Below, piece after piece: positions 6,993 to 32,936 of a DNA stretch of 45,472 nucleotides. The stretch spans positions 1 to 45,472 of the IMG/VR virus record IMGVR_UViG_3300042934_001340. One strand, written 5' to 3'. Position numbers and translations under genes: made by a program. The DNA comes from a virus. How positions within the stretch are numbered: position 1 is the stretch's first letter; the number at the start of each line of letters is the position of its first letter. The notes under the pieces are model-generated. The model did no database searches. It saw nothing but the letters and a program-made list of their open reading frames with translations, and had not been told where the DNA came from.

Positions 6993-7722
6993 TTTGTTTT
7001 ACCTCACTTTCCGTTACTTCAATATCAGAAGAGGAAAAATTCCTCCTGTTTTCCTGGATACCAAAGACTGCATAACCGTCAAAAATATTTACCTGAATGG
7101 ATTTTTGATGTTCCTCCACAGGTAAACCGAACTGATTCTTCCATTCAGCAGGGTATGCGGGAGTACGTGACATTTTTGGCTTTTCCCCCTCTTTGGCCGT
7201 ACTCATATATATTTCAGGTGTTGTAAGATCAAAAATAAAAAGAAGTTCATTATCAGAACTTATTAGTTTTCCCAATAACTTATATCTATAATTGGGGTTC
7301 CAACCCATGAGTGAGATAACCTTTGCAAAAAACATTCTACACGTAATCTGCTTTGGAGAACGTTTCTTTTCACTGGCAGAACACCAACGAAAGGAATCCT
7401 TTTCATCTTCTGAGCAAGGTCTGACAGCCAATTTTTTTTCATCAGGATTTACAAGAATTTGTACGAAATCAACATCAGGCAGCTTTTTTATACAAGCGGT
7501 ATTTAAGGAGACCTTGCAGTTACTTAAAGTGAAGGATGGTTCATATGTATGTGCAAAAAACTCTCCACGAACGACCTGATAACCATCATAACTAAAAGCA
7601 TCCTCTTCAATTATTTCAATCTCCCTTGAGGTTGTTTTCTGTTTTGGGTTGTAGGTATTATTCATAATTTCATTACTTGTGTTCTGAATAATATTATCAT
7701 TCAACATGGTTATTTCGTTCAT
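6985..7722 (-). CDS. recombinase-associated protein sharing the recombinase C-terminal domain
   Basis: 245 residues. From about residue 44 onward it aligns over most of its length with the recombinase C-terminal domain: FSYDGYQVVRGEFF, VQILVNPDEKKLAVRPC, FRWCSASE, LMGWNPNYRYKLLGKL, a strand plus EIY, then AYPAEWKNQFG near residue 195. The start is secure: AGGAGG lies six bases before the ATG at 7722, inside the end of the recombinase gene (26-base overlap). No enzyme motif is visible. A DNA- or protein-binding accessory module is inferred. Confidence 0.7.
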   Translation of the reverse strand: MNEITMLNDNIIQNTSNEIMNNTYNPKQKTTSREIEIIEEDAFSYDGYQVVRGEFFAHTYEPSFTLSNCKVSLNTACIKKLPDVDFVQILVNPDEKKLAVRPCSEDEKDSFRWCSASEKKRSPKQITCRMFFAKVISLMGWNPNYRYKLLGKLISSDNELLFIFDLTTPEIYMSTAKEGEKPKMSRTPAYPAEWKNQFGLPVEEHQKSIQVNIFDGYAVFGIQENRRNFSSSDIEVTESEVKQND

Positions 7723-9601
7723 GGTTAACCTCCTGTTTCATATCATTCATTAATTTGTCGATGCTTTTACAAATATCATCTGAATCGGTTATCTGCAATT
7801 CGGATTCTTTATACGGAACTCCATTCAGGTGAACACCCCATTCTTTATTATTTGAAAAAGCGGCAAGTTCACGAGCCTGCGAATGGCTATAATAGTTGTT
7901 ACCAAATCCATTTACCCAATCTGCTGGATAAGCAAGGACATTCTTCTTTACACCTTCAGTAAATGGAAGTATATCTTCCAATGGCTTTTTTGATTCTTGT
8001 TCTTTTTTATCGGCTGAATCAAGAACATCACTTGGAATTAAGATCTCCGTTTCGTGTAAATTAAATATTATGAGTGATGTATTTTCATTTTTTTTAAGAA
8101 CTCCTATTACGCGGTATTTGCAGGTTGGATTCCATCCGAATATATCATATAAAGTGGATAAATAGGCAGTACCACTGACAAGGCGAGGCTTAATCCGACC
8201 ATTTTGAGGACTGGCCCATTGTACGGAATTTCTGTTTTCGTTTGTACAAGGACGTACAGCAAATAGGAGTTTGGTTGGATGCACCAGCATTTCAATACCG
8301 ACAATATCATTTAACTTACGAATAGCCTCTGTACTGAATTTGATTCCATTAATAGAAAATGTCATACTGATTCGATCAGCGGTATCGAAAAACTGTGCTC
8401 GTGCTATTTCAAAACCACGAAGATCAAAATCTCCAGATTGAGCTGTTATACAGGAGGATGATATTGAGTTGACATCTTCAGTAACACTTTCTGATGCTGC
8501 TTTATAATCTTTTGATTTGAATCCTGCCCATCTTGGATGGATAGGAACAAATCCTTTTAAAACACCGTCGGTAATGACATGAAGTTCCGGAAGGAGTCCT
8601 TTATTTCCGTATTTTGCGTTGCTAATTAGGTGTTGAACAGCAATGAAATCGTCTCTTGAGATAATTGGCTCATGATGATTACGCTGACGATACTGGTTTC
8701 TGTCCTGTTTGTTCTTCTTTGATTTATGGTCAAGGTAACTTGGGGTCCAGGTTTTCCGAGCAAGAACATCTCCACAGTGCCTTTCATTCTGAAGAATTTG
8801 CAAAATAGAATTTACCGACCAGGTTGTATTATCCTTTTTAGTACGACATCCAAGGTTGGTAAGCGTGTCGGCAATCTGCTGGCAAGTGTAGCCGTATAGG
8901 TACATAAAAAATGTCAATCGTACAATTTTAGCTTCCTCCTCATTTATGATAAGATTACCATCATTATCCTGGTCATAGCCAAGAAGTGGCGGTGTGAGAA
9001 AAATACCTCTTCTGAAACGCATTTCGATTGAAGCATTCATAATTTCACTTTTATTATGGCTTTCTTCCTGGGCTAATGTAGAAATGAAGGATAAACTCAT
9101 TTCGCTCGTACTGTTCAAGGTGTAAATATTCTCGGTTTCAAAAAATACTCCCACCGGTGGTTGCAAAGCAGCGAGCTGCCTAACATATCCGATACAGTCA
9201 ACAACATTTCGGGCAAAACGTGAAACGCTCTTTGTAACAATTAAGTCTATCTTCCCTGCCTTACAGTCAGTAATCATTTTTACAAATGCATCCCTGTGCT
9301 GGAGAGAGGTGCCGGAAATGCCTTCATCGGCATATATTTCAATGAGTTTCCAGTCTGGACGGCGGCTGACAACATCATGATAATGGTATTTCTGTAATTC
9401 ATATGACGATGTTTGTCTTGGATCATCGGTTGATACTCTGGCATAGACAGCTACACGCTTTTCCCTTTGATTATCATAAAAATCTTCTTGTGGCAAAGCG
9501 GGAATAATATCTAGTTCATCTGAATTTATGCCTTTATATCGTTCTCGGATTTTTGATTTTTGTATAGCAATGCTTTCTTGCTTTATCTCATTTTCAGTCA
9601 T
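7697..9601 (-). CDS. large serine recombinase with an extra C-terminal domain
   Basis: 634 residues. Residues about 48-200 form the serine resolvase/invertase catalytic domain: AVYARVSTDD with R55 and nucleophile S57, DEGISGTS, and SVSRFARN with the later catalytic arginines. Residues about 200-340 match the Recombinase (DNA-binding) domain typical of large serine integrases, with the zinc-ribbon region apparently missing or altered. Residues about 392-575 are an additional domain shared with the next two proteins. Such enzymes integrate, excise or invert DNA between short attachment sites. Translation starts at ATG 9601 after GGGAAGG. A promoter and an inverted repeat lie upstream. It could be the integrase of the neighbouring prophage or the motor of a separate element; no attachment-site pair was identified. 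Confidence 0.9.
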   Translation of the reverse strand: MTENEIKQESIAIQKSKIRERYKGINSDELDIIPALPQEDFYDNQREKRVAVYARVSTDDPRQTSSYELQKYHYHDVVSRRPDWKLIEIYADEGISGTSLQHRDAFVKMITDCKAGKIDLIVTKSVSRFARNVVDCIGYVRQLAALQPPVGVFFETENIYTLNSTSEMSLSFISTLAQEESHNKSEIMNASIEMRFRRGIFLTPPLLGYDQDNDGNLIINEEEAKIVRLTFFMYLYGYTCQQIADTLTNLGCRTKKDNTTWSVNSILQILQNERHCGDVLARKTWTPSYLDHKSKKNKQDRNQYRQRNHHEPIISRDDFIAVQHLISNAKYGNKGLLPELHVITDGVLKGFVPIHPRWAGFKSKDYKAASESVTEDVNSISSSCITAQSGDFDLRGFEIARAQFFDTADRISMTFSINGIKFSTEAIRKLNDIVGIEMLVHPTKLLFAVRPCTNENRNSVQWASPQNGRIKPRLVSGTAYLSTLYDIFGWNPTCKYRVIGVLKKNENTSLIIFNLHETEILIPSDVLDSADKKEQESKKPLEDILPFTEGVKKNVLAYPADWVNGFGNNYYSHSQARELAAFSNNKEWGVHLNGVPYKESELQITDSDDICKSIDKLMNDMKQEVNHERNNHVE

Positions 9602-10761: not shown

Positions 10762-11871
10762 ATGGAACCATTTACTTGTGTGGATTTATTTTCAGGAGCG
10801 GGCGGGTTATCCAAAGGCTTCCTGGATGCCGGATATAATGTGATATTAGGTGTTGACCATGATGATGCTGCACTTAAGACTTTTAGTATGAATCATGGCG
10901 GCGCAGTTGCCATGAATTTGGATTTATTTGATCATAGCAATATTGATAAGGTTATCGAGTTTCTCGATGAACGAAAAATAAAATTGGATGTATTAATAGG
11001 CGGCCCTCCATGTCAAGGATTTTCATATGCCGGGGCTATGGATATAAATGATAGGAGAAATTTTTTATATCTTGCAATGGTAAAACTTACTGAACGCATA
11101 AAACCACAAGCCATTTTGCTTGAGAATGTCTTGGGAATGATAGAGGCAAGAGGAGGAGAAGGGGCAAAAAGAATTATTACGGATTTTGAAAAAATTGGAT
11201 ATAAAATGATACCAAAACTTTTATTTGCCCCAGATTATGGAATTCCTCAAATTCGTAAAAGAGTTTTCTTTGTCGGATTAAAAAATTTTGATGGAACATT
11301 TGAATTTCCCCCCGCCATTATGTGTCCTGAAAAATATGTGACCTGTGAAGATGCAATAAGCGATTTACCAACGTTACAAACAGAAAAAGGGGAAATCCTG
11401 CGTGGTGAAGCAATTCAAGATTACCGAGTCGCACCTTCAACAGACTATCAAAAATTGATGAGAAGACACTCGGATAAAGTTTACAACCATGTGGGCAGCA
11501 TACCGATTGAAAAAACAAAAAAGATGATTGCTTTAGTCCCTGAAGGGAAAAATTACCTTGCTCTTCCAGAAGAATACAGGGGAATGTATAAATATCATGA
11601 GGCATTAACACGGTATCATAGCAAGAAGCCTTCGCTTACAATAAATACGGGACACAGATCGCACTTTCACTATAAATATAACCGTATTCCGACTGTGAGA
11701 GAAAGCGCTCGATTGCAGAGCTTTCCAGATGATTTTATTTTTTATGGAAACCAATCACAACAGTATAAACAGGTTGGAAATGCTGTACCACCATTGCTAG
11801 GACAAGCTGTTGCTGAGGCATTAAAATCATACTTAAAACAAAGTAAAGAGGTTTATGAGCGTGAAATATAA
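10762..11871 (+). CDS. DNA cytosine-C5 methyltransferase 1 of the RM system
   Basis: 369 residues. The C5-methyltransferase motifs are in order: motif I DLFSGAGG (8-15), motif IV GGPPCQGFS with catalytic C84, motif VI ENV (121-123), motif VIII IRKRVFFVGL, and C-terminal motifs IX-X with SARLQSFPDDF and GNAVPPLLG. It transfers methyl from S-adenosylmethionine to carbon 5 of cytosine within a recognition site I cannot predict. It starts at ATG 10762 after AGAGGAT. It overlaps the next methyltransferase gene by 17 bases. With that second, different enzyme it probably methylates the two strands of an asymmetric site, as in LlaJI. Confidence 0.92.
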   Translation: MEPFTCVDLFSGAGGLSKGFLDAGYNVILGVDHDDAALKTFSMNHGGAVAMNLDLFDHSNIDKVIEFLDERKIKLDVLIGGPPCQGFSYAGAMDINDRRNFLYLAMVKLTERIKPQAILLENVLGMIEARGGEGAKRIITDFEKIGYKMIPKLLFAPDYGIPQIRKRVFFVGLKNFDGTFEFPPAIMCPEKYVTCEDAISDLPTLQTEKGEILRGEAIQDYRVAPSTDYQKLMRRHSDKVYNHVGSIPIEKTKKMIALVPEGKNYLALPEEYRGMYKYHEALTRYHSKKPSLTINTGHRSHFHYKYNRIPTVRESARLQSFPDDFIFYGNQSQQYKQVGNAVPPLLGQAVAEALKSYLKQSKEVYEREI

Positions 11872-13138
11872 AATGATTGATTTATTTGCTGGATGTGGTG
11901 GATTAGAAGATGGATTTCTTCAGAGTGGAAAATACGAGGATATTGCAGCAGTTGAATGGTTACAACCGCAAATTAATACATTAGTTAATCGATTAGAAAA
12001 AAAATGGCATATTGCGGATGCAAAAGAGCGAGTGATGTGTTTTGATATTCAGAGAGAGGAAGAATTGTTTTTAGGATGGAATATTGAGTCAGCTGCGCCG
12101 AAATCCGAAATTCTTCCAAGTGGGAAAAAGAGCCGTTACAAAACAGGCCCTTATGGAAATGGAAAAGGGTTGGACTATTATGTAAATAAAGCAAATGGAA
12201 TTGATATTATAATTGGTGGCCCTCCGTGCCAAGCATATTCTGTTGCTGGTCGTGTTAAAGATGGAAATGGTATGAAAGATGATTATAGAAATTATCTTTT
12301 TGAACATTATCTGAGTGTTGTAAACCGCTACAAACCAAAGGCTTTTATTTTTGAGAATGTTCCTGGATTATTAAGTGCAATCCCGGATGGAACGCCAATT
12401 ATTGATTTGATAAGAAAGGGATTTGGCAGCATAGGTTATGAAATAGTTGATGACATCAAAAAGTATGCAAAAATAAATGCAAGCGATTATGGTGTTCCAC
12501 AGCACAGAGAACGATTGATTATTCTCGGTCTTAGAAAAGATAATACAAAAAATTCACGAGAACTTTTGCATGATTTCTATTCTAAGATCTTGCCAAAATA
12601 CAAAGTCAAGCATAAAAAGACTGTGGGTGAAGCTATTGGAGATTTACCAGCTGCTTATCCATTGATTGATAAGCCATCGCCATCTGGTAGAATATCTTAC
12701 TCAAAGCCGGACTGTAAAACTACCTGGCATATTGCCAGGCGCCACAGCATACGAGATATTGAAATATACAGATTGCTTGCTGCTGATATTGAATCAGGAT
12801 GCAATGAATATACAAACAGCAAAGCATTAAGCGATTTGTATGAGGAACGTGTTGGAGCAAAATCGCCAATACATCGATATCATGTACTACGCAAGGATGA
12901 ACCGAGTACAACAATTATTTCACATTTAGACCGCGATGGAAACAGATTTATACATTTTGACCCAAAACAGGGTCGATGCATCACTCCGAGAGAGGCTGCA
13001 AGAATTCAGTCATTTGATGATGATTTTGACTTTATAGGGAACCAATCAGATGTCTATATAATGATTGGAAATGCGGTTCCCCCTGTGTTAGCAAAATGTA
13101 TTGCAATGGCAGTTTCGGAGGTATTAGAAAAACTCTAA
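11855..13138 (+). CDS. DNA cytosine-C5 methyltransferase 2 of the RM system
   Basis: 427 residues. Motif I DLFAGCGG (9-16), motif IV GGPPCQAYS with catalytic C125, motif VI FENVPGLL, motif VIII GVPQHRERLIILGL, and C-terminal AARIQSFDDDF and GNAVPPVLA. The spacing between motifs I and IV is longer than in its neighbour and includes a basic K/R-rich stretch. The two enzymes are clearly not recent duplicates. It begins inside the end of the first methyltransferase gene and lies 12 bases before the McrB-like gene, so all are one transcription unit. Role: protective methylation of host DNA, second strand or second site. Confidence 0.92.
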   Translation: MSVKYKMIDLFAGCGGLEDGFLQSGKYEDIAAVEWLQPQINTLVNRLEKKWHIADAKERVMCFDIQREEELFLGWNIESAAPKSEILPSGKKSRYKTGPYGNGKGLDYYVNKANGIDIIIGGPPCQAYSVAGRVKDGNGMKDDYRNYLFEHYLSVVNRYKPKAFIFENVPGLLSAIPDGTPIIDLIRKGFGSIGYEIVDDIKKYAKINASDYGVPQHRERLIILGLRKDNTKNSRELLHDFYSKILPKYKVKHKKTVGEAIGDLPAAYPLIDKPSPSGRISYSKPDCKTTWHIARRHSIRDIEIYRLLAADIESGCNEYTNSKALSDLYEERVGAKSPIHRYHVLRKDEPSTTIISHLDRDGNRFIHFDPKQGRCITPREAARIQSFDDDFDFIGNQSDVYIMIGNAVPPVLAKCIAMAVSEVLEKL

Positions 13139-13150
13139 TGAGGTATTGTT

Positions 13151-15910
13151 ATGACACATACTACAGAAAATTTGATAAAAGAACTGTGCGATGTAATTGA
13201 CAGTAATAAATATCTGATTCTATCTGGCGGAACAGCTGTTGGAAAATCATATATTGCAAATGAAATAACGAATATATGTCAGCTACCACAATATCAATCT
13301 CAAGGATGTATAGCGTCTCCAGAGGTTGGTTACAAGATTGAAAAAGAAATTGTGCAAATATATCCTTCATATTCTTATGAGGATTTTGTAGCCGGTATGT
13401 CGCTTGATACAAATGTGGACGGATTTTCGTTCGAGTATCATGATAAGATTTTCCTGTCAATTTTAAAGAAAGCAAATAAAAGCTGGGAGAAAAAAGAAGG
13501 TAAAAAATACTTTCTTATTTTGGAAGATATAGGGCGTGGCTACATTTCTGGCATTTTAGGAGATGTTTTACCTCTGCTTGAACCTCATGGAAATGAAAAG
13601 TTTATTATTACATCCCAGAATGGAACGAAACTAAGTATCCCACCCAATATATATATTATCGCAACGCTATGTACTACCGTGGATAGTGTGGAGCAAATGA
13701 ACTATGGATTCTTCCGACACTTTTATCACCAAATTATCGAGAGCGATTATCATTACATGAGCGATGTTGCTACGGAAGCGTACGGTGATTATGATATTTC
13801 TTCCAATGCGATGTTTTACAGATCGAAAAGAGTAGTTTTAGAAAATCTTCGCTATAGAAACCAGATTTCTCAATTCGATCGTGAAAAATATGTTATTGGG
13901 CATGGAGTATTTCGCCATGATGGAATAACCCAAGTAATGAGACATCAAGTTATTCCAACACTTAGGCAGTATATTAAAGATGGAATTGTAGATAAATCTG
14001 CAAAAGCAGGTATTGATATATTAGAGCATTTAGCTAATGGGAAATATAGTAAAGACCTCGCACTAGCTGATAACCATAGCATATGTGAGTATAGAACCAA
14101 TGTTACACCTGATATTTTCTATGAAGAGAATCTTACACATAGACCGATTGTAAACTTGGTTGCTCGCATTAAAACGCAAGGATTAGTTTGTGATATAGAT
14201 ATTATTGACACGATTTTATTAAACCCTGGCATATTGGTAAGAAAAAGTAGCAAACTGGACGGTCGTGACAGAACTTTTTCAACACCAGGTTATTTATATG
14301 TCAAAAGAGTTGATAGAGATGAATATTCGTATGGAACAACTAAGAAGGCGGATGGTACACCTAAGAATCCGAGATATTTTTATTCTTCAAACAAGGCTGA
14401 TATTTTGAAGATAAACGGAGTCGAATATGTTTCCGCATCTGAAATGCAACCGAAGGAATATACACGTTGGAGTGAGGATTTGAACGATGACAACTATATT
14501 AATGAAAGAGCATCATCGTCTCCTAACTCTATCATGTTCCGTATTCTCCGAAGCTATTACAAGTGTATAAATCAAAATTATTCGGAATACCTATCTGATT
14601 TTCCTAATGACAATAACATTAGAATACTTAGAGAATTTGCTAAAGCTGAATATGAAGATTTTCTCCAATATGTTCGTCAAATTGGTTCAGGGTCAGATGA
14701 AGCAGATGTGAATCTGGAAAGAAATAGGCAATTCAGAGAAAAAATCAAAGGTCTGAAACTATTTTGGGCAGATATTGGTGCTACTATAACTTGGAATGGA
14801 CAGACAATAAAAGTGGAAGGAGTCTACAAAGTGAGTACAACGGAAAAATACAAAGAATATGCAGATGCAATGGAAAATCTTCATATCCATCAGATGATAA
14901 TGCAAGGACCTCCGGGAACATCGAAGACTTATTCATCTCGGGAGTTTTTGAAGTTTATTGGTGAAAAGGAAGAAAGTGCAGAATACCTTTCCGATGATGA
15001 ATTGGATTCTATGCAGATTACAAGTTATGCGGAAGGCATTCCGATTACTGCATGGGAAAAAATGAATCCAGGCAAAGTGCCGCAAATAGCTTGGGATATC
15101 ATTCAATTTCATCCTTCGTATGGATACGAAGATTTCGTGCGTGGCATAGAAGTATCAACGCTGAAAGGAGAAGATGGAAAATCTTCCGCTATTTCATATG
15201 ATACCGTGAATAAAACATTAGGAAAAATTGCGGAAATCGCCTGTCGTAAAGCGTACGAAAATACCAAATTCTTTTTAGTTATCGATGAAATCAATCGTGC
15301 TAATTTAGCGACAGTTTTTGGTGAATTGATTTATGGCCTGGAATATAGAGGGAAGAGCGTAGCAACACCATATACTGTCGATGGTTCAAACAAAGTAGTT
15401 CTTCCAGATAATTTATATATTCTAGGTACAATGAATACTGCGGATAAATCCATTGGGGGAATTGATTATGCAATTAGGCGAAGATTCCTCTTTTTCTCAT
15501 TACTACCTAATAAGGAAATTATTACGACTTACAATTTAAGTGAATTAACGGACGAGCCATCCAAGGAAGCTCAGAGGATAACAAATGAAAGCGCTGTCCG
15601 TTTGTTTGAGGTAGTGGAAAAACTGTTTGCTCCAGGAAATTTAAATGCAGAGTATTACAAAGACGATGTTCAAATAGGGCATACATATTTTCTTGTTACA
15701 TCTAAGGAGCAGCTTTACCTTCGATTTAAATATCAGATATTGCCGGTTTTAAGGGAATATTATAAGGACGGGATGTTCCAAATTGAGCAAACCGATTCTG
15801 AAAATGATGCTTTTGGTGGCTTACGGGCTTGTATTTCTGGTGAGATTAATATCAATAGCGAAGAGGAACGTGTAAAAGAAATATTCAACAAATTACTGGC
15901 AGATAATTAG
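13151..15910 (+). CDS. tandem AAA+ McrB-like restriction NTPase
   Basis: 919 residues with two AAA+ modules. The C-terminal one is a canonical McrB GTPase: Walker A GPPGTSKT (about 586-593), FHPSYGYEDFVRGIE, Walker B with DEINRANLATVFGEL (about 712-726), and the MNTADKSI signature followed by DYAIRRRF. The N-terminal one keeps Walker A GGTAVGKS (26-33) and a YPSYSYEDFVAGM motif. It has EDIGRG (125-130) where DEINRA is expected and ATLCTTVD where the MNTAD signature is expected, so its hydrolysis is doubtful. About 250 residues between them may recognise DNA. It should form a ring NTPase that drives translocation and activates the McrC-like nuclease encoded next. It is unusually long for McrB-type subunits. 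Confidence 0.88.
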   Translation: MTHTTENLIKELCDVIDSNKYLILSGGTAVGKSYIANEITNICQLPQYQSQGCIASPEVGYKIEKEIVQIYPSYSYEDFVAGMSLDTNVDGFSFEYHDKIFLSILKKANKSWEKKEGKKYFLILEDIGRGYISGILGDVLPLLEPHGNEKFIITSQNGTKLSIPPNIYIIATLCTTVDSVEQMNYGFFRHFYHQIIESDYHYMSDVATEAYGDYDISSNAMFYRSKRVVLENLRYRNQISQFDREKYVIGHGVFRHDGITQVMRHQVIPTLRQYIKDGIVDKSAKAGIDILEHLANGKYSKDLALADNHSICEYRTNVTPDIFYEENLTHRPIVNLVARIKTQGLVCDIDIIDTILLNPGILVRKSSKLDGRDRTFSTPGYLYVKRVDRDEYSYGTTKKADGTPKNPRYFYSSNKADILKINGVEYVSASEMQPKEYTRWSEDLNDDNYINERASSSPNSIMFRILRSYYKCINQNYSEYLSDFPNDNNIRILREFAKAEYEDFLQYVRQIGSGSDEADVNLERNRQFREKIKGLKLFWADIGATITWNGQTIKVEGVYKVSTTEKYKEYADAMENLHIHQMIMQGPPGTSKTYSSREFLKFIGEKEESAEYLSDDELDSMQITSYAEGIPITAWEKMNPGKVPQIAWDIIQFHPSYGYEDFVRGIEVSTLKGEDGKSSAISYDTVNKTLGKIAEIACRKAYENTKFFLVIDEINRANLATVFGELIYGLEYRGKSVATPYTVDGSNKVVLPDNLYILGTMNTADKSIGGIDYAIRRRFLFFSLLPNKEIITTYNLSELTDEPSKEAQRITNESAVRLFEVVEKLFAPGNLNAEYYKDDVQIGHTYFLVTSKEQLYLRFKYQILPVLREYYKDGMFQIEQTDSENDAFGGLRACISGEININSEEERVKEIFNKLLADN

Positions 15911-15929
15911 CCAAAGCGGAGATGAGTCT

Positions 15930-17411
15930 ATGGTTCAAAACAGTTACTGGGAAGAAGGGTCAAAGCATCAATGGCTCTTTTGTGCCAATGATAATAGTTC
16001 ATTGGATAAGCTACAGGAAAAAGTTAATATTGACACGATACAGTATGCTGCAAATGATGAGCCAGTTAACTTGGGGATTAGAAGAGTAAATGGAAGAGTT
16101 TACTCTGGAAATTATGTTGGTTTGTGCAGACTGAAATGTGTAAATGGGAAAAATCTGTTATCTTATGATGGACGGGAAGTGATTTTGAGAATAGAACCAC
16201 GTTTTCCTGTTTCTGTTGTAGATATGCTCAATGCTTTAAGAGATGATGACGAGTTCGAACGATATCTGGCACCTCAAACAACTAGAATAGACACAGTTGA
16301 AAAAGAAATTGAAGATCTGAAAAACAACGAATTGTTTTACTTCTTTGACGGTGAAGATCCGATTTTTGTTGAAGATAACATAGCACTGAATAGTAGCATT
16401 ATTACAGCAAGTGTGTTCTTAAGCTTGTTGAAAGACCTTTGCAGCAGACCTCTTATGGGTAAAATGGTTATCAAAGAAGAAAATTTAGTTGGCAAGGCTA
16501 AAGGAAAAATTCTGTTCAAGAATAATATTCGAAACAATACACTTCGTGGGCGAAATGATCGTCTCTATTGTAGATATTTGCAATACTCTGAAGATATTCT
16601 CGAAAACCAGGTTCTTAAGGCGGCATTACATAAAGCAACATTGTTTCTTAATAGGTACTTTGGTTCTGCAAGTGGAAATAGTAATTCATTTCGTGAAATG
16701 ACAGCGTATTGCCAAAATGCATTACGGCATTTAACTTATACAAAAATTCTGCGTCAGGATCTGATTAAAATAAAGACAACAGGGTGTTATGTATACTATA
16801 AGCCTGTTATTAATGCTGCCAAAATGGTTTTGAATGAGATTACATTGGGTGCAAATGGTGATTCGAAATTTACATGTTATGTTATTCCATATGCCGTATC
16901 AATGGATAAACTCTTTGAAATGTATGTTAGAACATATTTAAAACAAGCCGGTATTAAGTCCTATTTGTCATCAGAGGAGGGACTTCATATGCTCAAATAT
17001 GATTACAAATCAAAGGTTTTGGAGCAGAGTGATAATTTGTATTCGAATTATATTAATGGAAATGTTAAACCGGATATTATTATTCATGATACAAAGAAAA
17101 ATAAATATGTTGTGTTTGATGTTAAATATAAAAATATTCAGAACCGCGGATATTCAAGAGCCGATAGATTACAGATTTTGGCATATGCTCTTATGTACGA
17201 TTGTGATAATGTTGGAATTGTGTTCCCTTCGCTAACAGGTGTGGAAAATGAATATTATGCTGGAAATGCAATTCAAAGCATTGAGAACCGAGAAAGATAC
17301 TATAACCAGTTAGAATTTTCTATAGATACAAATTGGCATTGCATTATAAAATCCAAAGATGGTCAAGAAGAAATTCCTCTTATTGATTATATCAAAAAAT
17401 TACTTGTTTAG
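15930..17411 (+). CDS. McrC-like nuclease subunit
   Basis: 493 residues. The N-terminal half contains the McrC-type layout with LRIEPRFPVSVVDML and a helical region. The C-terminal third has a PD-(D/E)XK core: KPDIII (about 380-385) followed by YVVFDVKYKN (about 394-403), giving the D...DxK catalytic set. It should be the DNA-cutting partner of the McrB-like NTPase, acting after methylation status or sequence is read. It starts 19 bases after the previous stop with GGAGATG before the ATG. It is followed by a good terminator, so it closes the operon. Confidence 0.88.
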   Translation: MVQNSYWEEGSKHQWLFCANDNSSLDKLQEKVNIDTIQYAANDEPVNLGIRRVNGRVYSGNYVGLCRLKCVNGKNLLSYDGREVILRIEPRFPVSVVDMLNALRDDDEFERYLAPQTTRIDTVEKEIEDLKNNELFYFFDGEDPIFVEDNIALNSSIITASVFLSLLKDLCSRPLMGKMVIKEENLVGKAKGKILFKNNIRNNTLRGRNDRLYCRYLQYSEDILENQVLKAALHKATLFLNRYFGSASGNSNSFREMTAYCQNALRHLTYTKILRQDLIKIKTTGCYVYYKPVINAAKMVLNEITLGANGDSKFTCYVIPYAVSMDKLFEMYVRTYLKQAGIKSYLSSEEGLHMLKYDYKSKVLEQSDNLYSNYINGNVKPDIIIHDTKKNKYVVFDVKYKNIQNRGYSRADRLQILAYALMYDCDNVGIVFPSLTGVENEYYAGNAIQSIENRERYYNQLEFSIDTNWHCIIKSKDGQEEIPLIDYIKKLLV

Positions 17412-18090: not shown

Positions 18091-19134
18091 CTATTCTGGG
18101 GGATGGCACTTTTTACAAGGTTCATACCCCTTTGCTTTTGCTTCTTTCAAGGTCGTTTTTATTTTACTCTGATTCAGCATGGAACATGTGGCTTTATGAT
18201 ACTTCGTTCCGGTCTCAGTGATATAAACTATTGTTTTATTGTTAGCAGAAGTTGAGGTGTCTTTGCTGTCATTAAATTTTGTGGCAGTTGCATTAAATTT
18301 AATATTTGTACCGGTACTAGTAGCAACAATTGTACTGTTTTCATCTGTTCTATAAGTAGTAATTTTACTATTTGCCAACAAGCTTATTGTGTTTTCTCCG
18401 GGATGCCCATAACTATTCTTTCCGACAGAAATAACTGCATATTTTGGACTAATTGCTTTAAGCAGTTCTTTTGTGGTACTTGTATCGGAGCCATGGTGGC
18501 CACACATATACACGTCTGCTTTTAAACTTATCTTATTTTTCAGTATGTCATTAATGGCTTTGGTTTCATTATCCCCTATAAAGATAAAAGTGTTCTTACC
18601 ATTTGTTAATTTGATTCCTACGGAATAGTTATTAAGATTATCTCCATAATCATAACTGTTTGGCGCGATAATTGTGAATTTAGCCTTGCCAATTGCATAT
18701 TTTGTTCCAACAACCGGTTTCGTTATTTTTAGTCCTTTATTTTTGATTGCCTTTAATAAATCTTCATAAGTTTCAGTTGTATTGGATATGGCTGGTGCTA
18801 TTACTTTTCCTATGTCAAAAGTTTTAATAACATCGTCCATACCACCGATGTGGTCAGCATGGGGATGGGTGCAGATAACGTAATCAAGCTTCTTTATCTT
18901 CTTATTTTCTAAATAGTCTACTATATTATCACCATCGCCATTATTTCCAGCATCGATTAACATATATTTTCCATCGGATTGAATAAGGACGCAATCAGAT
19001 TCACCAACATCAATATAGTTTACATACATTTTGTAATATTTAGTTGCTGCATTAGTCTGCTGAGCACCAGATAGGGATACTAGAATTGACACTAAAAGAA
19101 GATAACATAGTATTCTTTTTATTCGAATTTTCAC
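18091..19134 (-). CDS. secreted ComEC-like metallo-beta-lactamase-fold hydrolase
   Basis: 347 residues from GTG 19134, chosen because AGGGGG lies nine bases before it; a TTG at 19143 directly abuts that site. A signal peptide is visible: basic KIRIKR, a hydrophobic core LCYLLLVSILVSLSG, and AQQTNAA as a cleavage region. The metallo-beta-lactamase fold follows: YIDVGESDC, the metal motif THPHADHIGG, IFIGDNE, and CGHHGSDTST with GHPG. The last about 45 residues (VYITETGTKYHKATCSML to CKKCHPP) are an Ada-like or competence-nuclease-type metal-binding tail with paired cysteines. ComEC-type hydrolases are thought to degrade nucleic acid or nucleotides; extracellular action is inferred. It forms an operon with DUF3006. 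Confidence 0.85.
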   Translation of the reverse strand: MKIRIKRILCYLLLVSILVSLSGAQQTNAATKYYKMYVNYIDVGESDCVLIQSDGKYMLIDAGNNGDGDNIVDYLENKKIKKLDYVICTHPHADHIGGMDDVIKTFDIGKVIAPAISNTTETYEDLLKAIKNKGLKITKPVVGTKYAIGKAKFTIIAPNSYDYGDNLNNYSVGIKLTNGKNTFIFIGDNETKAINDILKNKISLKADVYMCGHHGSDTSTTKELLKAISPKYAVISVGKNSYGHPGENTISLLANSKITTYRTDENSTIVATSTGTNIKFNATATKFNDSKDTSTSANNKTIVYITETGTKYHKATCSMLNQSKIKTTLKEAKAKGYEPCKKCHPPE

Positions 19135-19165
19135 AATAAACAACCCCCTAATATAATCTATTGCA

Positions 19166-19262: not shown

Positions 19263-19291
19263 TTGACAAGTATATAATCAAGTGATACAAT
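19263..19291 (+). promoter_or_regulatory. strong sigma-A promoter of the phage XRE gene
   Basis: TTGACA (19263-19268), a 17-base spacer and TACAAT (19286-19291), 45 bases before the ATG at 19337. Perfect -35 and five of six in the -10. Confidence 0.8.
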
Positions 19292-19336: not shown

Positions 19337-19747
19337 ATGATGAATATATTAGTGCCAAATGAATGTCACGTTTCGTTTGGAGAATATGTAAAAGCACGCA
19401 GAGAGGCGCTCGGCAAGTCGATACGTGGACTAGCTTTGGAACTGGATATGACACCGGCATATCTGAGCGATATTGAAAAAGGAAACCGCTATGCTCCGGA
19501 GAAATATCTCGAAAAAATGACAGAGGTATTGTGTATCGAAGGGGATGCTTCCTATTACTTCTACGATCTTGCAGGTAAAAGCAGAAATAATATTTATCCG
19601 GATTTGGTAGAGTATATAGGTAAGACGGAGATTGCTCGTGTGGCATTGCGAAGAGCACGAGATCTGAATATCTCTAATACTCAGTGGCAGGATTTTATTG
19701 ATCAAATTTGTGGTATTAAGAAGATGCAAGAGGAGGGGTGCCATTGA
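19337..19747 (+). CDS. XRE-family regulator, candidate phage repressor
   Basis: 136 residues. Residues about 13-70 form the helix-turn-helix domain: FGEYVKARREALGKSIRGLA, then MTPAYLSDIEKGNRYAPEKY as the recognition region. The C-terminal part is helical with no LexA-like peptidase motif. AAGGTGGA precedes tandem ATGs at 19337 and 19340. It is the first gene of the rightward phage block, with a strong promoter and a palindrome in its leader and a terminator 60 bases after its stop. It is therefore a monocistronic, self-regulated unit. It could be the lysogeny repressor or an activator of early genes. Confidence 0.82.
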   Translation: MMNILVPNECHVSFGEYVKARREALGKSIRGLALELDMTPAYLSDIEKGNRYAPEKYLEKMTEVLCIEGDASYYFYDLAGKSRNNIYPDLVEYIGKTEIARVALRRARDLNISNTQWQDFIDQICGIKKMQEEGCH

Positions 19748-19807
19748 ATCACCAACCAATGACAAAAGCTAAAAGATAATAACTGTACAGATATAAAAGC
19801 AGATTAC

Positions 19808-19836
19808 GCAGGATGAAATTGTCCTGCTATTTTATT
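19808..19836 (+). terminator. terminator after the XRE gene
   Basis: GCAGGA (19808-19813) pairs with TCCTGC (19822-19827) over an eight-base loop and is followed by TATTTTATT. It is a short but clean hairpin. Confidence 0.6.
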
Positions 19837-19891
19837 CTCATGGTGTTAACAAACTTGCTTACATAGGGACTACTAAAAGGAGAGATTGTAA

Positions 19892-20074
19892 ATGCATGAT
19901 ATAAAGTTTCCTATTGTAATAACCTGCCCTTGGTGTGGGACAGGAAAGACATTTGCAGATAAGCCGGCTGACATTAAGGTATCATGCCGGTGCCATGAAT
20001 GCGGTAAGATTTATCATATTAATTTTAATACCCAGAGGGCAGTGAAAGCAAAAGCAAATTCCAAAAATAAATAA
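19892..20074 (+). CDS. small zinc-ribbon protein
   Basis: 60 residues. Two CxxC pairs are visible, TCPWCGTGK near residues 11-19 and CRCHECGKIYH near residues 32-42, the layout of a single zinc ribbon, followed by a lysine-rich tail. AAGGAGAG lies before the ATG. Such small phage proteins often bind nucleic acid or RNA polymerase; no specific role can be assigned. It is the first gene downstream of the XRE terminator and is followed by the structured leader region. Confidence 0.75.
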   Translation: MHDIKFPIVITCPWCGTGKTFADKPADIKVSCRCHECGKIYHINFNTQRAVKAKANSKNK

Positions 20075-20104
20075 TAGAGCATGAATTACCGACTGAGTCA
20101 ATAG

Positions 20105-20180
20105 GGGCATATATCGCTTGGTACAACCTTCTACGCAAGGACGCCGCTCACGATTCTCCCGTAGAATATGCGATATAGAA
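20105..20180 (+). ncRNA. candidate structured leader RNA
   Basis: Two nested helices: TATATCGC (20110-20117) with GCGATATA (20170-20177), and inside it TTCTACG (20129-20135) with CGTAGAA (20160-20166), enclosing a G+C-richer apical loop. No gene overlaps it, and the terminator hairpin follows within 15 bases. CTTGG (20117-20121) could alternatively pair with CCAAG (20189-20193), overlapping the terminator base. It is not a family I recognise. It could be the aptamer-like part of a cis-regulatory element or an independent small RNA. Confidence 0.45.
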
Positions 20181-20190
20181 GCCACCACCC

Positions 20191-20238
20191 AAGACCGGGG
20201 TAACGCTGGAAACAGTGTTGCCTAGGTCTTATTTTTTT
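20191..20238 (+). terminator. strong terminator hairpin with GAAA tetraloop
   Basis: AAGACC (20191-20196) pairs with GGTCTT (20225-20230), and inside it GGTAACGCTG pairs with CAGTGTTGCC (two G-T wobbles) across a GAAA loop. Seven T residues follow. It lies 64 bases before the sigma-like gene, so it would end upstream transcription unless anti-terminated. Confidence 0.8.
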
Positions 20239-20251
20239 GCGCCTTTTTTCA

Positions 20252-20298
20252 GGTATCTCCTGTTTCCGGCTTGTCCGGCAGTAAAGAAAGGAGATACC
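20252..20298 (+). promoter_or_regulatory. hairpin sequestering the ribosome binding site
   Basis: GGTATCTCCT (20252-20261) is perfectly complementary to AGGAGATACC (20289-20298), which contains the ribosome binding site of the gene starting at 20302. A CCGG/CCGG pair (20266-20269 with 20275-20278) extends the helix internally. In this fold the site would be closed to ribosomes. Confidence 0.65.
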
Positions 20299-20301
20299 AG
20301 T

Positions 20302-20745
20302 ATGAAAATTAGGTACACATCAGTAACAGGACAAACTCATGAAATTGAGGTTTCAGAGGAGTGGGGAGAAATCATCCTCGAACTTGACCGGAAGGAATAT
20401 AACGTCAACCGGAAAGAAACCCGCCGTCATACTTCACTTGATGGTTATGACTATATCGATGGACAAGCAGATACCAATCCTCACTTATCTCGTGATGCTT
20501 TTGAGTTTAGAAACAGTATCTGCTCTGAAAGTGCTGAGATTGCTGCTGACTTAGAGAGTAAATACACAAGGCAGCATATCCGGAATACAGTGGACAGGCT
20601 GAAGCCGAAACAACGGGATCTTATCATTAACATTTATTATAACGGAGTATCCGTAAATGAATATGCAAAACGGGAGGGAGTGGATCATTCTGCAATATCT
20701 CACCGGTTACATACAGCTTATAAAGATTTGAAAAAACTTTTGTAA
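20302..20745 (+). CDS. sigma-70-like phage regulator
   Basis: 147 residues from ATG 20302, preceded by AAAGGAGAT; an upstream in-frame ATG at 20215 lies inside the terminator and is rejected. The N-terminal part is a small strand-rich region (IRYTSVTGQTHEIEVS). The C-terminal 60 residues are a sigma region 4-like helix-turn-helix: LKPKQRDLIINIYYNGVSVN, then YAKREGVDHSAISHRLHTAY. It probably redirects RNA polymerase or regulates early phage genes. Its ribosome binding site can be hidden in a hairpin. Confidence 0.8.
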   Translation: MKIRYTSVTGQTHEIEVSEEWGEIILELDRKEYNVNRKETRRHTSLDGYDYIDGQADTNPHLSRDAFEFRNSICSESAEIAADLESKYTRQHIRNTVDRLKPKQRDLIINIYYNGVSVNEYAKREGVDHSAISHRLHTAYKDLKKLL

Positions 20746-20826
20746 ATATCCTCACATCCTTTTCAGTCCGTGGCTGTTTAATGAAGGCAATATGAAATGA
20801 AGCCTTTGGAAAGGAAGGTACAACAT

Positions 20827-21030
20827 ATGAGACACACATTGCAGATCAGTGTTTCAAAAGAAACGCCGGGTGGTGGGATTATCAGCTGTCGTCATGTAAC
20901 AGTCAGAGAAAAGCTCCTACGCTTTCTTCTGGGTAAAAGGCAACGATTAACCGTCATCGTTCCAGGTGATAGCGTGGAATCGGTATCCATCAATGAGGTA
21001 GGTGGGAAAGGAGGCAAAGAGCATGAGTAA
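20827..21030 (+). CDS. small phage protein, unknown function
   Basis: 67 residues from ATG 20827, which has GGAAGG seven bases upstream; an in-frame ATG at 20797 has no site. A strand-rich, basic protein (REKLLRFLLGKRQRLTVIVPGD in the middle) with a glycine-rich tail. I do not recognise a family. It overlaps the next gene by eight bases and lies in the early phage operon. Confidence 0.65.
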   Translation: MRHTLQISVSKETPGGGIISCRHVTVREKLLRFLLGKRQRLTVIVPGDSVESVSINEVGGKGGKEHE

Positions 21031-21346
21031 AGTTAGTTTGTTATTGGATGTGGTCACTGAACTTAAGAAGTTGGCTGGGAGCCTGCAGACATTGGCAGAA
21101 ACTTTGGATACCAATGTATCAGCGGGTGAGGCACAGAAAGAAACACCAGCTCAGGTAACTGATACAAAGACTGCTGAGAAAAAAATTACACTTGAACAGG
21201 TCAGAGCGGTGCTGGCAGAGAAATCACATGACGGTTTTACAGCAGAGATCAGAACACTGCTTGAAAAGTATGGGGCAGATAAGCTGAGTAAGATCGCCCC
21301 GGCAAACTATGCTGCACTTTTAGCGGATGCGGAGGAATTGAAATGA
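21023..21346 (+). CDS. early phage protein, unknown function
   Basis: 107 residues from ATG 21023, following AAAGGAGG at good spacing; a GTG at 21002 is rejected. The N-terminal 35 residues look like an amphipathic helix (LLLDVVTELKKLAGSLQTLA). A flexible linker rich in T, E and K follows, and then a helical C-terminal domain from about residue 54 (ITLEQVRAVLAEKS). This layout, placed directly before DUF2800 and DUF2815, recurs in clostridial phages and may be a recombination or replication accessory. Its stop overlaps the DUF2800 start by four bases. Confidence 0.7.
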   Translation: MSKVSLLLDVVTELKKLAGSLQTLAETLDTNVSAGEAQKETPAQVTDTKTAEKKITLEQVRAVLAEKSHDGFTAEIRTLLEKYGADKLSKIAPANYAALLADAEELK

Positions 21347-22467
21347 GCACCCATGCAATCTTATCAGCATCCTCCGCCCATCGCTGGATGGTATGCACAC
21401 CATCAGCCAGATTGGAACAGGAGTTTAAGGATACTGCCAGTAAAGCAGCAGAAGAAGGCTCCGCTGCTCACGCCCTTGCGGAACACAAGTTGAGGAAAGC
21501 CCTGAAGATGCGCTCCAAGAAACCAGTATCAGAGTATGACTGTGATGAGATGGATGCACTTACGGATGATTATGTAAGCTTTATTCTGGAGCAGCTTTCC
21601 AAGGTTAAACTACAATGCCCGGACCCTCTTGTTCTTATTGAACAGAAATTGAACTTCTCAAATTATGTACCCGATGGCTTTGGTACCGGGGACTGCCTAA
21701 TTATAGCTGATGGTACTATGCACATCATCGATTTCAAATATGGACAGGGAATTCTGGTTGAAGCTGAGGAAAATCCACAGATGAAGCTGTATGCTCTTGG
21801 TGCACTGGAGTATTTCGATGACATCTATGACATCGATAATGTGTCCATGATCATATTCCAGCCAAGACGGGAGAATGTAAGCACATTCACGGTGCCAAAG
21901 GAAGCACTTTATCTGTGGGCGACAAAAGTACTGGTACCCACGGCCAAGATTGCCTTTGAAGGTGGCGGAGAATTTGTACCGGGTGAGCACTGCCAGTTCT
22001 GTCGTGCGCAGGTTAAATGCCGGGCAAGAGCGGAAGCAAAGCTAAAGCTTGCAGCTTTTGAGTTCGAATTACCACCCCTGCTTTCAGATGAGGAGATAGC
22101 CGAAATTCTCGAAAAACTGGATGATTTGGTTTCATGGGCTAACACAATAAAGGATTATGCTCTGGCAACAGCAATTGAAGGAAAGGAATGGCCAGGTTAC
22201 AAACTGGTGGAGGGACGTTCAAATCGCAGATATACCGATGAGGAAGCGGTAGCAGCGTCACTGAAGGCAGCAGGGTATCGTGATATTTACCGGCAGATAC
22301 TTATCACCATCACCGAGGCAGAGAAGCTACTTGGAAAGAAGAAGTTCAATGAAGTCCTTGGAGACTACATCATCAAACCACAAGGACGTCCGACCCTTGT
22401 GTCTGTCAGTGATAAGCGGCCGGCAATGAACCTATCGGCAAATCAGGATTTTAAGGAGGAAATATAA
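21343..22467 (+). CDS. DUF2800 Fe-S RecB/Cas4-like nuclease
   Basis: 374 residues. Core PD-(D/E)XK motifs: GTGDCLII and HIIDFKYG (D and K of the active site, about residues 118-134), then QMKLYALGAL, the QxxxY motif, near residue 146. A cysteine at residue 18 (MVCTPS) and the later HCQFCRAQVKC cluster give the CxxCxxxxxC arrangement of AddB/Cas4-type iron-sulphur nucleases. It probably resects DNA ends for phage recombination or replication together with the DUF2815 protein encoded one base downstream. The ATG overlaps the previous stop (ATGA). Confidence 0.85.
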   Translation: MSTHAILSASSAHRWMVCTPSARLEQEFKDTASKAAEEGSAAHALAEHKLRKALKMRSKKPVSEYDCDEMDALTDDYVSFILEQLSKVKLQCPDPLVLIEQKLNFSNYVPDGFGTGDCLIIADGTMHIIDFKYGQGILVEAEENPQMKLYALGALEYFDDIYDIDNVSMIIFQPRRENVSTFTVPKEALYLWATKVLVPTAKIAFEGGGEFVPGEHCQFCRAQVKCRARAEAKLKLAAFEFELPPLLSDEEIAEILEKLDDLVSWANTIKDYALATAIEGKEWPGYKLVEGRSNRRYTDEEAVAASLKAAGYRDIYRQILITITEAEKLLGKKKFNEVLGDYIIKPQGRPTLVSVSDKRPAMNLSANQDFKEEI

Positions 22468-22468
22468 A

Positions 22469-23047
22469 ATGTCAAATACAGCAAACAGTGTAAATCATAA
22501 TGAAAGCAAAAACCCTACAAAGGTTGTAACAGGTGTAGTTCGTCTTAGTTATGCAAATGTGTGGGAACCAAAAAGCATTAATGGAAATGCAGAAAAATAC
22601 AGTGTCAGTCTGATCATCCCCAAAAGTGATAAAAAGACGATTGCGGCTATTAATGCAGCAGTAAATGAAGCAATTGAAGAAGGAAAAGGTAAATTTGGTG
22701 GTAAGGTTCCAAATAAGGCTGCATTAAAACTTCCTCTCCGTGATGGGGACATTGACCGTCCCGATGATGAAGCTTATGCAGACAGCTTCTTTGTCAATGC
22801 AAATTCCAACACAGCACCGCAGATTGTAGATCGACAGGTACAACCTATATTGGATCGTTCAGAAGTCTATTCCGGTGTTTATGCAAGGGTATCAATTAAC
22901 TTTTATGCATTTAACTCAAACGGAAATAAGGGCATAGCCTGCGGCTTAGGTAACATTCAGAAGATAAAGGACGGAGAACCGTTAGGTGGTCGTTCTAACG
23001 CAGAGGATGACTTTGCTACTGATGTGGATGATGATTTCTTATCATGA
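22469..23047 (+). CDS. DUF2815 ssDNA-binding-like protein
   Basis: 192 residues. It has the layout of DUF2815: VTGVVRLSYANVWEPKSING, then YSVSLIIPK, a helix KKTIAAINAAVNEAIEEGK, and a strand-rich second half with YARVSINFYAFNSNGNKGI. It ends in an acidic tail (EDDFATDVDDDFLS), as single-strand binding proteins do. The family is predicted to be an OB-fold DNA-binding protein. AAGGAGG precedes the ATG. It overlaps the polymerase start by four bases. Confidence 0.85.
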   Translation: MSNTANSVNHNESKNPTKVVTGVVRLSYANVWEPKSINGNAEKYSVSLIIPKSDKKTIAAINAAVNEAIEEGKGKFGGKVPNKAALKLPLRDGDIDRPDDEAYADSFFVNANSNTAPQIVDRQVQPILDRSEVYSGVYARVSINFYAFNSNGNKGIACGLGNIQKIKDGEPLGGRSNAEDDFATDVDDDFLS

Positions 23048-25017
23048 GGGCACTATTTTTGGATTTGGAAACCTACTCGAGTGCAGACCTAAGTAAATGC
23101 GGTGTGTATCGTTATTCGGAATCACCAGACTTTGAGATTCTCCTATTTGGTTACAGCATAGACGGAGGTGAGGTATGTGTCATTGACCTCGCCTCCGGTG
23201 AAGTCATTCCGTTTGTAATCAAGGAAGCTTTAATGAATGAAAATATTATTAAGTGGGCACATAATGCACAGTTTGAACGGGTTTGCCTGTCACGGTGGCT
23301 GGAGCAGCAGGGCATAACATTTGCTTCATGGGATAAAAAATGCAGGTTTCTAAATCCAGTATCTTGGCGGTGTACCATGGTATGGTCTGCCTATTTGGGA
23401 TTGCCATTATCACTGGAACAGGCTGCAATTGTGACGGGAGCCGAGAAGAAAAAGCTATCCGAAGGTAAAGACCTCATCCGGTATTTCTGTTCACCCTGCA
23501 AACCAACGAAAGCAAACGGAGGAAGTACGAGAAACCTACCAAGCCATGCTCCGGATAAGTGGGAGCATTTTAAAGCTTATAATGCAAGGGACGTGGAAAC
23601 GGAGATGGCGATTGCAAGTAAATTTTTTAAGTTTCCGGTTCCGGAGGATGAGTGGAAATACTATCGCCTTGACCAAGAAATTAATGACAGAGGTATTCAG
23701 CTGGATATAGACCTTGTAAGGGAAGCAATCCGGTGTGATGAGCAGTCAAAGGAGGAGCTCACCAGAACCATGAGAGAAATCACTGATCTTGAAAATCCAA
23801 ATTCGGTCGTTCAGATGAAGGCATGGCTTGGAGAAAATGGGTTGGAAACAACTTCGCTTGGTAAAGAGGCAGTTAAGGAATTACTGAAGACTGCACCAGA
23901 GGAGCTTGCAGATGTATTGACAATGAGGCAGTCACTGGCGAAGAGCAGCGTGAAGAAATACACGGCAATGGAAAAGGCTATATGCAAAGACGGAAGGGTC
24001 AGAGGGCTGCTTCAATTCTATGGAGCCAACCGGACCGGAAGATTTGCAGGGCGGCTTGTGCAGGTGCAGAATCTCCCACAGAACCATCTTCCCGATTTGG
24101 CGCAGGCACGTAGTCTTTTGAAATTAAGGAATTTCGATGCCTTGGAATTGCTATACGACTCTGTTCCGGTTGTTCTTTCAGAACTGATAAGAACAGCATT
24201 TGTGCCAAAACCGGGTTATAAATTCATTGTGTCGGATTTCTCGGCAATTGAAGCTAGGGTCATTGCCTGGCTTGCAGGAGAGAGCTGGCGAAATGAGGTG
24301 TTTGCCACACATGGGAAGATTTATGAAGCGTCTGCAAGCCAGATGTTCCGTGTTCCAATTGAGGAGATTACGAAGGGCAGTCTTTTGCGGCAGAAAGGTA
24401 AGATTGCAGAACTGGCACTGGGCTATGGGGGATCCGTCGGGGCGTTAAAGGCTATGGGCGCCTTGGAGATGAGACTCACCGAAGAGGAGCTGCAGCCATT
24501 GGTGACGGCTTGGCGCACAGCCAATCCGAATATCGTGCAACTGTGGTGGGACGTGGATCGTGCTGCTGCAACTGCAGTCCGGGAGAGAAACAACGCTCAG
24601 ACACATGGGATACAGTTTGAATATCGCAGTGGTTTTCTTTTCATCATGCTTCCATCCGGAAGGCGCCTTGCATATGTGAAACCCAAAATTGCTTTAAACC
24701 GATTTGGCAACGAGACAGTGACCTATGAAGGCGTGGGTGCCACAAAGAAGTGGGAACGGATAGAAAGCTATGGCCCGAAGTTCGTGGAGAATATTGTTCA
24801 GGCAATCAGCCGTGATATCCTCTGTTATGCCATGCGACGTCTTAATAGTATCGGGCTTTCCATCGTAATGCATGTACATGATGAGGTGGTTATCGAAGCA
24901 TCTGAGGATATTTCAACGGAGATGGTCTGCAACTATATGGATGAGACACCACCTTGGGCTAATGGTCTTTTACTACGAGCTGATGGTTATAAATGTAAGT
25001 TTTATAAAAAGGATTAA
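23044..25017 (+). CDS. phage family A DNA polymerase
   Basis: 657 residues. An N-terminal 3'-5' exonuclease domain is suggested by FLDLETYSS (residues 4-12, DxE) and YNARDVETEMAIA near residue 180. The polymerase domain has motif A VSDFSAIEAR (D398), motif B LRQKGKIAELALGYGG, and motif C MHVHDEVVIE (H612, D613, E614). It replicates phage DNA. There is no 5'-nuclease domain, as usual for phage enzymes of this length. A 10-bp stem-loop lies after its stop. Confidence 0.92.
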   Translation: MRALFLDLETYSSADLSKCGVYRYSESPDFEILLFGYSIDGGEVCVIDLASGEVIPFVIKEALMNENIIKWAHNAQFERVCLSRWLEQQGITFASWDKKCRFLNPVSWRCTMVWSAYLGLPLSLEQAAIVTGAEKKKLSEGKDLIRYFCSPCKPTKANGGSTRNLPSHAPDKWEHFKAYNARDVETEMAIASKFFKFPVPEDEWKYYRLDQEINDRGIQLDIDLVREAIRCDEQSKEELTRTMREITDLENPNSVVQMKAWLGENGLETTSLGKEAVKELLKTAPEELADVLTMRQSLAKSSVKKYTAMEKAICKDGRVRGLLQFYGANRTGRFAGRLVQVQNLPQNHLPDLAQARSLLKLRNFDALELLYDSVPVVLSELIRTAFVPKPGYKFIVSDFSAIEARVIAWLAGESWRNEVFATHGKIYEASASQMFRVPIEEITKGSLLRQKGKIAELALGYGGSVGALKAMGALEMRLTEEELQPLVTAWRTANPNIVQLWWDVDRAAATAVRERNNAQTHGIQFEYRSGFLFIMLPSGRRLAYVKPKIALNRFGNETVTYEGVGATKKWERIESYGPKFVENIVQAISRDILCYAMRRLNSIGLSIVMHVHDEVVIEASEDISTEMVCNYMDETPPWANGLLLRADGYKCKFYKKD

Positions 25018-32348: not shown

Positions 32349-32936
32349 ATGGCTAAAGATGGAACTAACAGAGGCGGCCGCAGGGTTCGTGCCGGTGATA
32401 AACCGAAAGCTCTTGCAGATAAAATCCCTTTAGGGAAGGCGGCTAAGGTTTTGGAGGTTCCGGACTTACATCCCGAGTCAATGTTGGAAGCTGATGATTT
32501 GGAGGATGCAGCTGATTTGAATGGGGAGGATATGCCAGAACCAAGTGAATACCTAAGCACAAGGCAGAAGGATGGAAGACCGCTTGGTGCAGATGCGCTA
32601 TTTAAAGAAACTTGGAGGTGGCTAAAGGATCGCGGGTGTGAGAAATTCGTTAATCCCAGGCTGATTGAAGCCTATGCCCAGGCATTCACCCGTTATATTC
32701 AATGCGAGGAAGCCATAAGTACTTACGGGCTTTTAGGAAAACACCCAACTACGGGAGGCGCCATTGCAAGCCCATTCGTACAGATGAGCCAATCGTTTCA
32801 GAAACAGGCAAATCTCATCTGGTATGAGATTTTTGACATAGTGAAACAAAATTGTACCACAGCTTTTACCGGTAATCCGCAGGATGATATCATGGAGGCT
32901 CTGCTGTCGGGAAGGAAAGGACGGTATAACGTATGA
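32349..32936 (+). CDS. terS: terminase small subunit, P27 family
   Basis: 195 residues. An N-terminal basic, glycine-rich tail (MAKDGTNRGGRRVRAGDK) is followed by an acidic linker and a helical core: FKETWRWLKDRGCEKFVNPR, then YAQAFTRYIQCEEAISTYGL and SPFVQMSQSFQKQANLIWYE. This fits the P27-type terminase small subunit, which recognises the packaging site. GGAGG lies upstream at good spacing. Unusually, the large subunit gene is not next but about 5.8 kb away. Its end overlaps the adjacent methyltransferase start (ATGA). Confidence 0.85.
   Translation: MAKDGTNRGGRRVRAGDKPKALADKIPLGKAAKVLEVPDLHPESMLEADDLEDAADLNGEDMPEPSEYLSTRQKDGRPLGADALFKETWRWLKDRGCEKFVNPRLIEAYAQAFTRYIQCEEAISTYGLLGKHPTTGGAIASPFVQMSQSFQKQANLIWYEIFDIVKQNCTTAFTGNPQDDIMEALLSGRKGRYNV

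Follow-up and report, generated by a model that had tools for sequence, protein, structure and literature searches.

The question raised by this locus is what a 198-nt structured leader does in front of a small sigma-like regulator gene and the replication genes that follow it. The window, that is, the whole stretch of DNA analysed here, comprises 45,472 bases (positions 1-45,472 of IMG/VR virus record IMGVR_UViG_3300042934_001340), and its source is a temperate phage, a virus of Clostridia-type bacteria. The original prediction saw in the leader both transcriptional and translational elements ahead of a phage regulator, and this has held up, as the helices covary and the layout recurs in homologous loci. 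We consider it reasonably probable that the leader serves the phage as a two-lock, delayed-early gate in front of its replication operon, one lock being an intrinsic terminator and the other a hairpin that hides the Shine-Dalgarno (SD) sequence of the sigma-like gene.

First of all, the setting of the leader defines what such a gate could control (coordinates are on the plus strand unless marked (-)). The regulated gene (20302..20745, ATG at 20302) encodes a small protein with a conserved N-terminal domain, whose 45 residues are the part best conserved among relatives, and a C-terminal domain resembling region 4 of sigma factors, the domain that binds the -35 element. Its product matches PHROG 11138 (E 2e-32) and, just below the cut-off, Pfam Sigma70_r4_2 (E 2e-5), and its best Foldseek match is ECF sigma region 4 (E about 0.003-0.01). 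Behind it (20797..25017) lies an operon identified by Pfam and PHROG matches, comprising PHROG 7234, PHROG 408, DUF2800, an Enc34-type ssDNA-binding protein and PolA, in an order shared by most of the related loci that offer enough sequence. Upstream are an HTH_3 regulator gene (19337..19747; Pfam HTH_3/HTH_31), a conserved upstream neighbour in several loci (L003, L005, L011, L113, L010, L020, L044 and L062), and the gene for a zinc-ribbon protein of 60 residues (CPWC...CRCHEC; 19892..20074), a candidate trans-acting factor. Judged by sequence, a promoter-like site (TTGACA-17-TACAAT with TG ahead of the -10; 19263..19291), which scores 11/12 in a consensus scan whose overall number of sites is near chance, is a candidate early promoter of the HTH gene, the zinc-ribbon gene, the leader and the replication genes. 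A gene for a metallo-beta-lactamase-fold protein (18091-19143, (-)) is divergent from the HTH/zinc-ribbon operon. Further out, a large serine recombinase with Resolvase and Recombinase domains (7697-9601, (-)) is the probable integrase of the element, and a row of two C5 cytosine methyltransferases, an AAA_5 (McrB-like) protein and a McrBC-component protein (10762-17411, +) has the appearance of a cassette for restriction-modification or methylation-dependent restriction, belonging to the phage or to a flanking island; downstream of the replication genes, a ParB_N/N6_N4 methyltransferase fusion is followed by a further C5 methyltransferase (32933-35852, +).

Second, the leader structures are real. 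Folded over 20105-20301, the leader reaches -72 kcal/mol (z = -5.0), and none of 200 shuffles was as good. All the elements first proposed, namely two nested helices, a terminator with a GAAA loop and seven T residues and a 10-bp helix masking the SD, are present where they had been placed. The outer helix, P1, is formed by 20106-20108 with 20181-20183 and by 20110-20117 with 20170-20177 (span 20106..20183), and four of its pairs are changed on both sides in the distant relative L113. Within it, P2 (20129-20135 with 20160-20166; span 20129..20166) encloses a small P3 and the conserved loop CCRCTCA, and carries double compensations in L004 and L012. A conserved CCACCAC (20182..20188), kept in the window class of leaders and in L162 and L164, stands directly 5' of the intrinsic terminator, whose stem (20191-20230; hairpin -25 kcal/mol) has the GAAA tip and is followed by the seven T at 20232-20238. 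Finally, the SD-sequestering hairpin (20252..20298) pairs GGTATCTCCT (20252-20261) with AGGAGATACC (20289-20298) over a perfect 10 bp, hiding the AAAGGAG at 20287-20293 ahead of the ATG, and shows four double compensations between the window and L113. The leader has at its 5' edge the palindrome GACTGAGTC (20091..20099), unchanged throughout the window class and in L162; this palindrome was considered as a repeated operator and rejected, since the window holds a single exact copy. A leader peptide, MNYRLSQ, starting near 20082 was likewise rejected, its ATG being AAG in relatives.

The window class, from which the covariation is drawn, has few members: the window, L002, L003, L005, L011 (Anaerocolumna), L004, L012 and, more distantly, L113, with about 35% identity in the sigma-like protein. 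Even so, in the 5' domain 95% of cells are paired and 8 of the 20 pairs show double changes, which none of 500 shuffles reaches, and when the alignments are slid as a control the paired fraction drops to 21-49%; the helix covariation expected from the original prediction is thus found. What the class conserves as sequence are single-stranded motifs (GACTGAGTCAA, CCRCTCA and CCACCAC), parted by helices that change in sequence. The class is also narrowly distributed. Phage and plasmid records searched with the leader by blastn gave no match, a DNA search of 397 genomes of the family found the Anaerocolumna prophage as the sole window-class example, and a covariance model run over 391 genomes of the class Clostridia returned only the Anaerocolumna copy and nothing in the other leader classes. 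Pattern scans added no phage beyond those known and L162, the remaining matches being chance. In L012, which comes from a MAG, the sigma-like frame is interrupted (about 1240-1567) and the SD is changed to AAAAGAG, as if the locus were decaying.

Third, the arrangement extends well beyond this class. Profile searches of Clostridia phages and prophages yielded about 60 distinct leaders before homologous genes, falling into 12 sequence classes, and these share a common layout in mostly unrelated sequences: a terminator, then an SD hairpin, then the same replication operon. A shared sequence element across all 5' domains was sought and rejected, as none rose above shuffles. Five of the leaders (L006, L013, L014, L015 and L017) are identical over 200 nt and come from records named Fonticella, Thermoanaerobacterium, Thermoanaerobacter, Oscillospiraceae MAG and virus contig; they represent either a very recently spread element or cross-contamination. 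Near the L031 locus, the opposite strand carries a SAM riboswitch (3743-3840, (-)). A terminator-like hairpin with a T run is present in 57 of the 61 leaders with enough sequence, mostly at -110 to -60, at a loose threshold under which a few are weak. Over the wider region of the window, a terminator scan alone finds 5 against 4.2 expected, a number near chance, and the support for the terminator is therefore its conservation, which includes L113 and L162. The second element recurs in all 10 of the 10 classes that have an SD, and, compared with 213 other gene starts in these loci, the SD is more often paired (median unpaired 0.24 versus 0.48; p 2.5e-5 when tested on ten class means). Since this two-lock design is kept with different sequences in related viruses, it probably represents a genuine switch setting the onset of viral multiplication.

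It might be argued that the two elements are unconnected, with the HTH/zinc-ribbon operon ending in a plain terminator and the sigma-like gene having its own promoter together with a chance or mildly inhibitory hairpin. The region's near-chance numbers of terminator-like and promoter-like sites would agree with this, as would the moderate start structure of many phage genes among the control gene starts and the case of L162, in which the terminator module is present without the window-type SD hairpin, so that the two locks are separable. However, chance pairing is hard to reconcile with an SD that is paired in every SD-bearing class, a plain terminator with the conserved covarying domain ahead of it, and a separate promoter with a search for sigma-70-like sites between terminator and SD, which found 0 in 25 representatives (0.8 expected), as fits a gene reached by readthrough. 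Together with the matching of strands described below, this leaves the unconnected arrangement unlikely.

The two locks of the proposed gate also share complementary strands. In the window, strand 1 at the terminator tip (GCTGGAAACAG, 20205..20215) can form 11 bp with strand 3 on the loop side of the SD hairpin (CTGTTTCCGGC, 20260..20270), a match that is modest for a single leader (helix-length p 0.038, energy p 0.023). In L113 the strand 1:3 match is fully Watson-Crick and in L058 the pairing reaches 18 bp; within the window class it shows no covariation except one wobble. Across 31 leaders, the terminator region pairs far better with the 5' half of the SD hairpin of its own leader than with that of others (double-centred mean -8.2 kcal/mol, permutation sd 0.78, 0 of 20,000 permutations), a within-leader matching that speaks against unconnected elements; the signal is absent in one class (L007, L056, L107 and L095). 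An alternative pairing had originally been placed elsewhere, between CTTGG and a CCAAG at the terminator base. That pairing exists in the window (20117-20121/20189-20193), but a switch through it is unsupported, as it is broken in every close relative because CTTGG reads CCTGG in L003, L005 and L011 and CATGG in L004 and L012. The strand 1:3 pairing is the better alternative.

Trp-type attenuators use a four-strand design in which the strands pair in mutually exclusive ways. Similarly, strand 1 of the window pairs with strand 2, forming the terminator, or with strand 3, which in the window is also within the SD hairpin. Unlike the trp-type design, strand 3 is made after the terminator, and there is no conserved leader peptide. 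Because strand 3 is transcribed after the terminator, the 1:3 helix is not itself an antiterminator and cannot prevent termination, although it could report on or stabilise an open state. Furthermore, full-length RNA favours the locked form over the 1:3 form by about 21 kcal/mol, so an outside factor is needed.

The leader was also compared with known RNAs. It had been described as not assignable to a known family, and indeed Rfam gives no match at gathering thresholds and none up to E 10 over 19700-20900, so that no known family with another role was matched. The matter is nevertheless partly resolved, as the site is the one that RF02960 (DUF2800 RNA) occupies in other phages. RF02960, like the window leader, is the leader of a phage operon bearing DUF2800. 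The leaders of L025 and L063 match it at 109.7 and 87.7 bits and precede homologues of the window's sigma-like gene, RF02960 loci of other genomes likewise front this kind of operon, and in L153-L155 an SD hairpin directly follows the motif and strand 1:3 pairing is possible, as in the window. In contrast, the window leader does not reach the 60.2-bit threshold of the RF02960 covariance model, its 5' domain has an unrelated sequence, and its fold lacks the helix that encloses the terminator-like hairpin in the RF02960 consensus. Given the same operon position and no RF02960 match, the window leader is a syntenic counterpart of DUF2800 RNA and not a member.

A small-molecule riboswitch would account for the aptamer-like nested helices, the conserved loops and the adjoining expression platform. 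We consider it very improbable, as the leader controls a phage replication operon and not a metabolic gene, the 5' domain is exchanged for unrelated ones at the same site between phages and is mostly deleted in L162, and no Rfam riboswitch matches. Of the two halves of the suggested signal-sensing or protein-responsive RNA, nothing points to a small-molecule ligand, and the protein-responsive half appears likelier because a small zinc-ribbon gene lies directly upstream. The leader RNA might also act alone on RNA polymerase and suppress the terminator without any phage protein, like the put RNA of HK022. Conserved covarying stem-loops directly ahead of the terminator, and class-specific 5' domains before a constant terminator, are what such an RNA would look like, but P1b-P3 is mostly a short loop in L162, making most of the domain dispensable, and no sequence core is common to the classes; we regard this as quite improbable, if less so than a riboswitch.

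A protein is the favoured trigger for the two-lock gate, and the zinc-ribbon gene encodes the leading candidate. A small CxxC-CxxC open reading frame ending within 450 bases upstream of the start is present in 24 of 59 loci and 7 of 12 classes, against an expectation of 0.085 from other positions in the same loci; because the loci are related, the effective number is smaller than 24/59 suggests. It is present in 7 of the 7 window-class loci with enough upstream sequence and absent from 5 of the 12 leader classes. A profile search seeded with the window zinc-ribbon gene returns to W-type leaders, those of L162 and L164, in which the zinc-ribbon gene and the terminator are kept along with a leader core that is shortened. 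In both, the place of the sigma-like gene is taken by one that, on visual inspection, resembles a DeoR-type HTH regulator; DUF2800 comes next, and in L162 the Enc34-type ssDNA-binding gene as well. P1b-P3 of L162 is largely swapped for the short loop. The joint retention in L162 and L164 links the zinc-ribbon gene with the leader core plus terminator.

Phage Mu offers a precedent, in which Com activates mom by binding the mom leader and exposing the start region (PMC6483171). As in com-mom, a small zinc-ribbon gene here lies directly upstream of an mRNA with a hairpin-hidden ribosome site (PMC6483171); the window differs in that the two genes are parted by a terminator and it is a sigma-like regulator that is controlled. 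More specifically, the proposed trigger could be a translational activator of the Com kind, the zinc-ribbon protein binding the leader, melting the SD hairpin and possibly acting at the terminator. Its position immediately upstream in all window-class loci argues for this, and the zinc-ribbon copies of L036 and L092 match a PHROG translational regulator (PHROG 6417 at 6e-6, with gpCom at 6e-5, for L036; 4e-4 for L092). The window protein itself, on the other hand, misses the Com profile (Pfam PF10122, 9.2 bits against a cut-off of 22.9) and gives E 0.16 to PHROG 6417, some classes have no zinc-ribbon gene, and its retention in L162 and L164 without the SD hairpin points to the leader core and terminator as its site instead. 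We hold this version to be a genuine possibility, with less than an even chance of being right.

The two-lock gate that we infer would work as follows. Transcription would begin upstream, probably before the HTH gene, so that the HTH and zinc-ribbon proteins are made first. Most polymerases would then halt at the terminator, at 20238, and the readthrough transcripts that leak past it would be silent, with the SD of the sigma-like gene folded into the 10-bp hairpin. Opening of the gate would require strand 1 of the terminator to be held off its partner; in the readthrough RNA, strand 1 could then pair with strand 3 and help to free the ribosome site, a step for which the complementarity is weak in the window leader. 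The trigger would most likely be a protein that acts on the leader, the upstream zinc-ribbon protein being, by virtue of its position, the first candidate. The output would be the sigma-like regulator together with the DUF2800, ssDNA-binding and PolA replication genes. In phage lambda, the terminator of nutR-tR1 lies between early regulator genes and the replication genes and is passed only when a factor allows it. The terminator of the window leader is likewise placed between early regulator genes and replication genes and would likewise be passed conditionally; the window differs in having the SD hairpin as a second lock.

More broadly, the leaders might belong to a widespread module of Clostridia phages, in which an early zinc-ribbon protein opens a combined lock on terminator and ribosome site and DUF2800 RNA is one of many sequence-unrelated versions; we put this forward as a tentative and somewhat doubtful generalisation. 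If true, the zinc-ribbon-opened gate would do the work of lambda N/tR1 with other components. DUF2800 RNA, an orphan Rfam motif, gains a testable role and a wider family, with one operon position, many unrelated leaders and one layout. If the two-lock reading is right, a candidate regulator protein is named along with the exact base pairs to mutate, and the gate would be a commitment point to replication in temperate phages and prophages of Clostridia.
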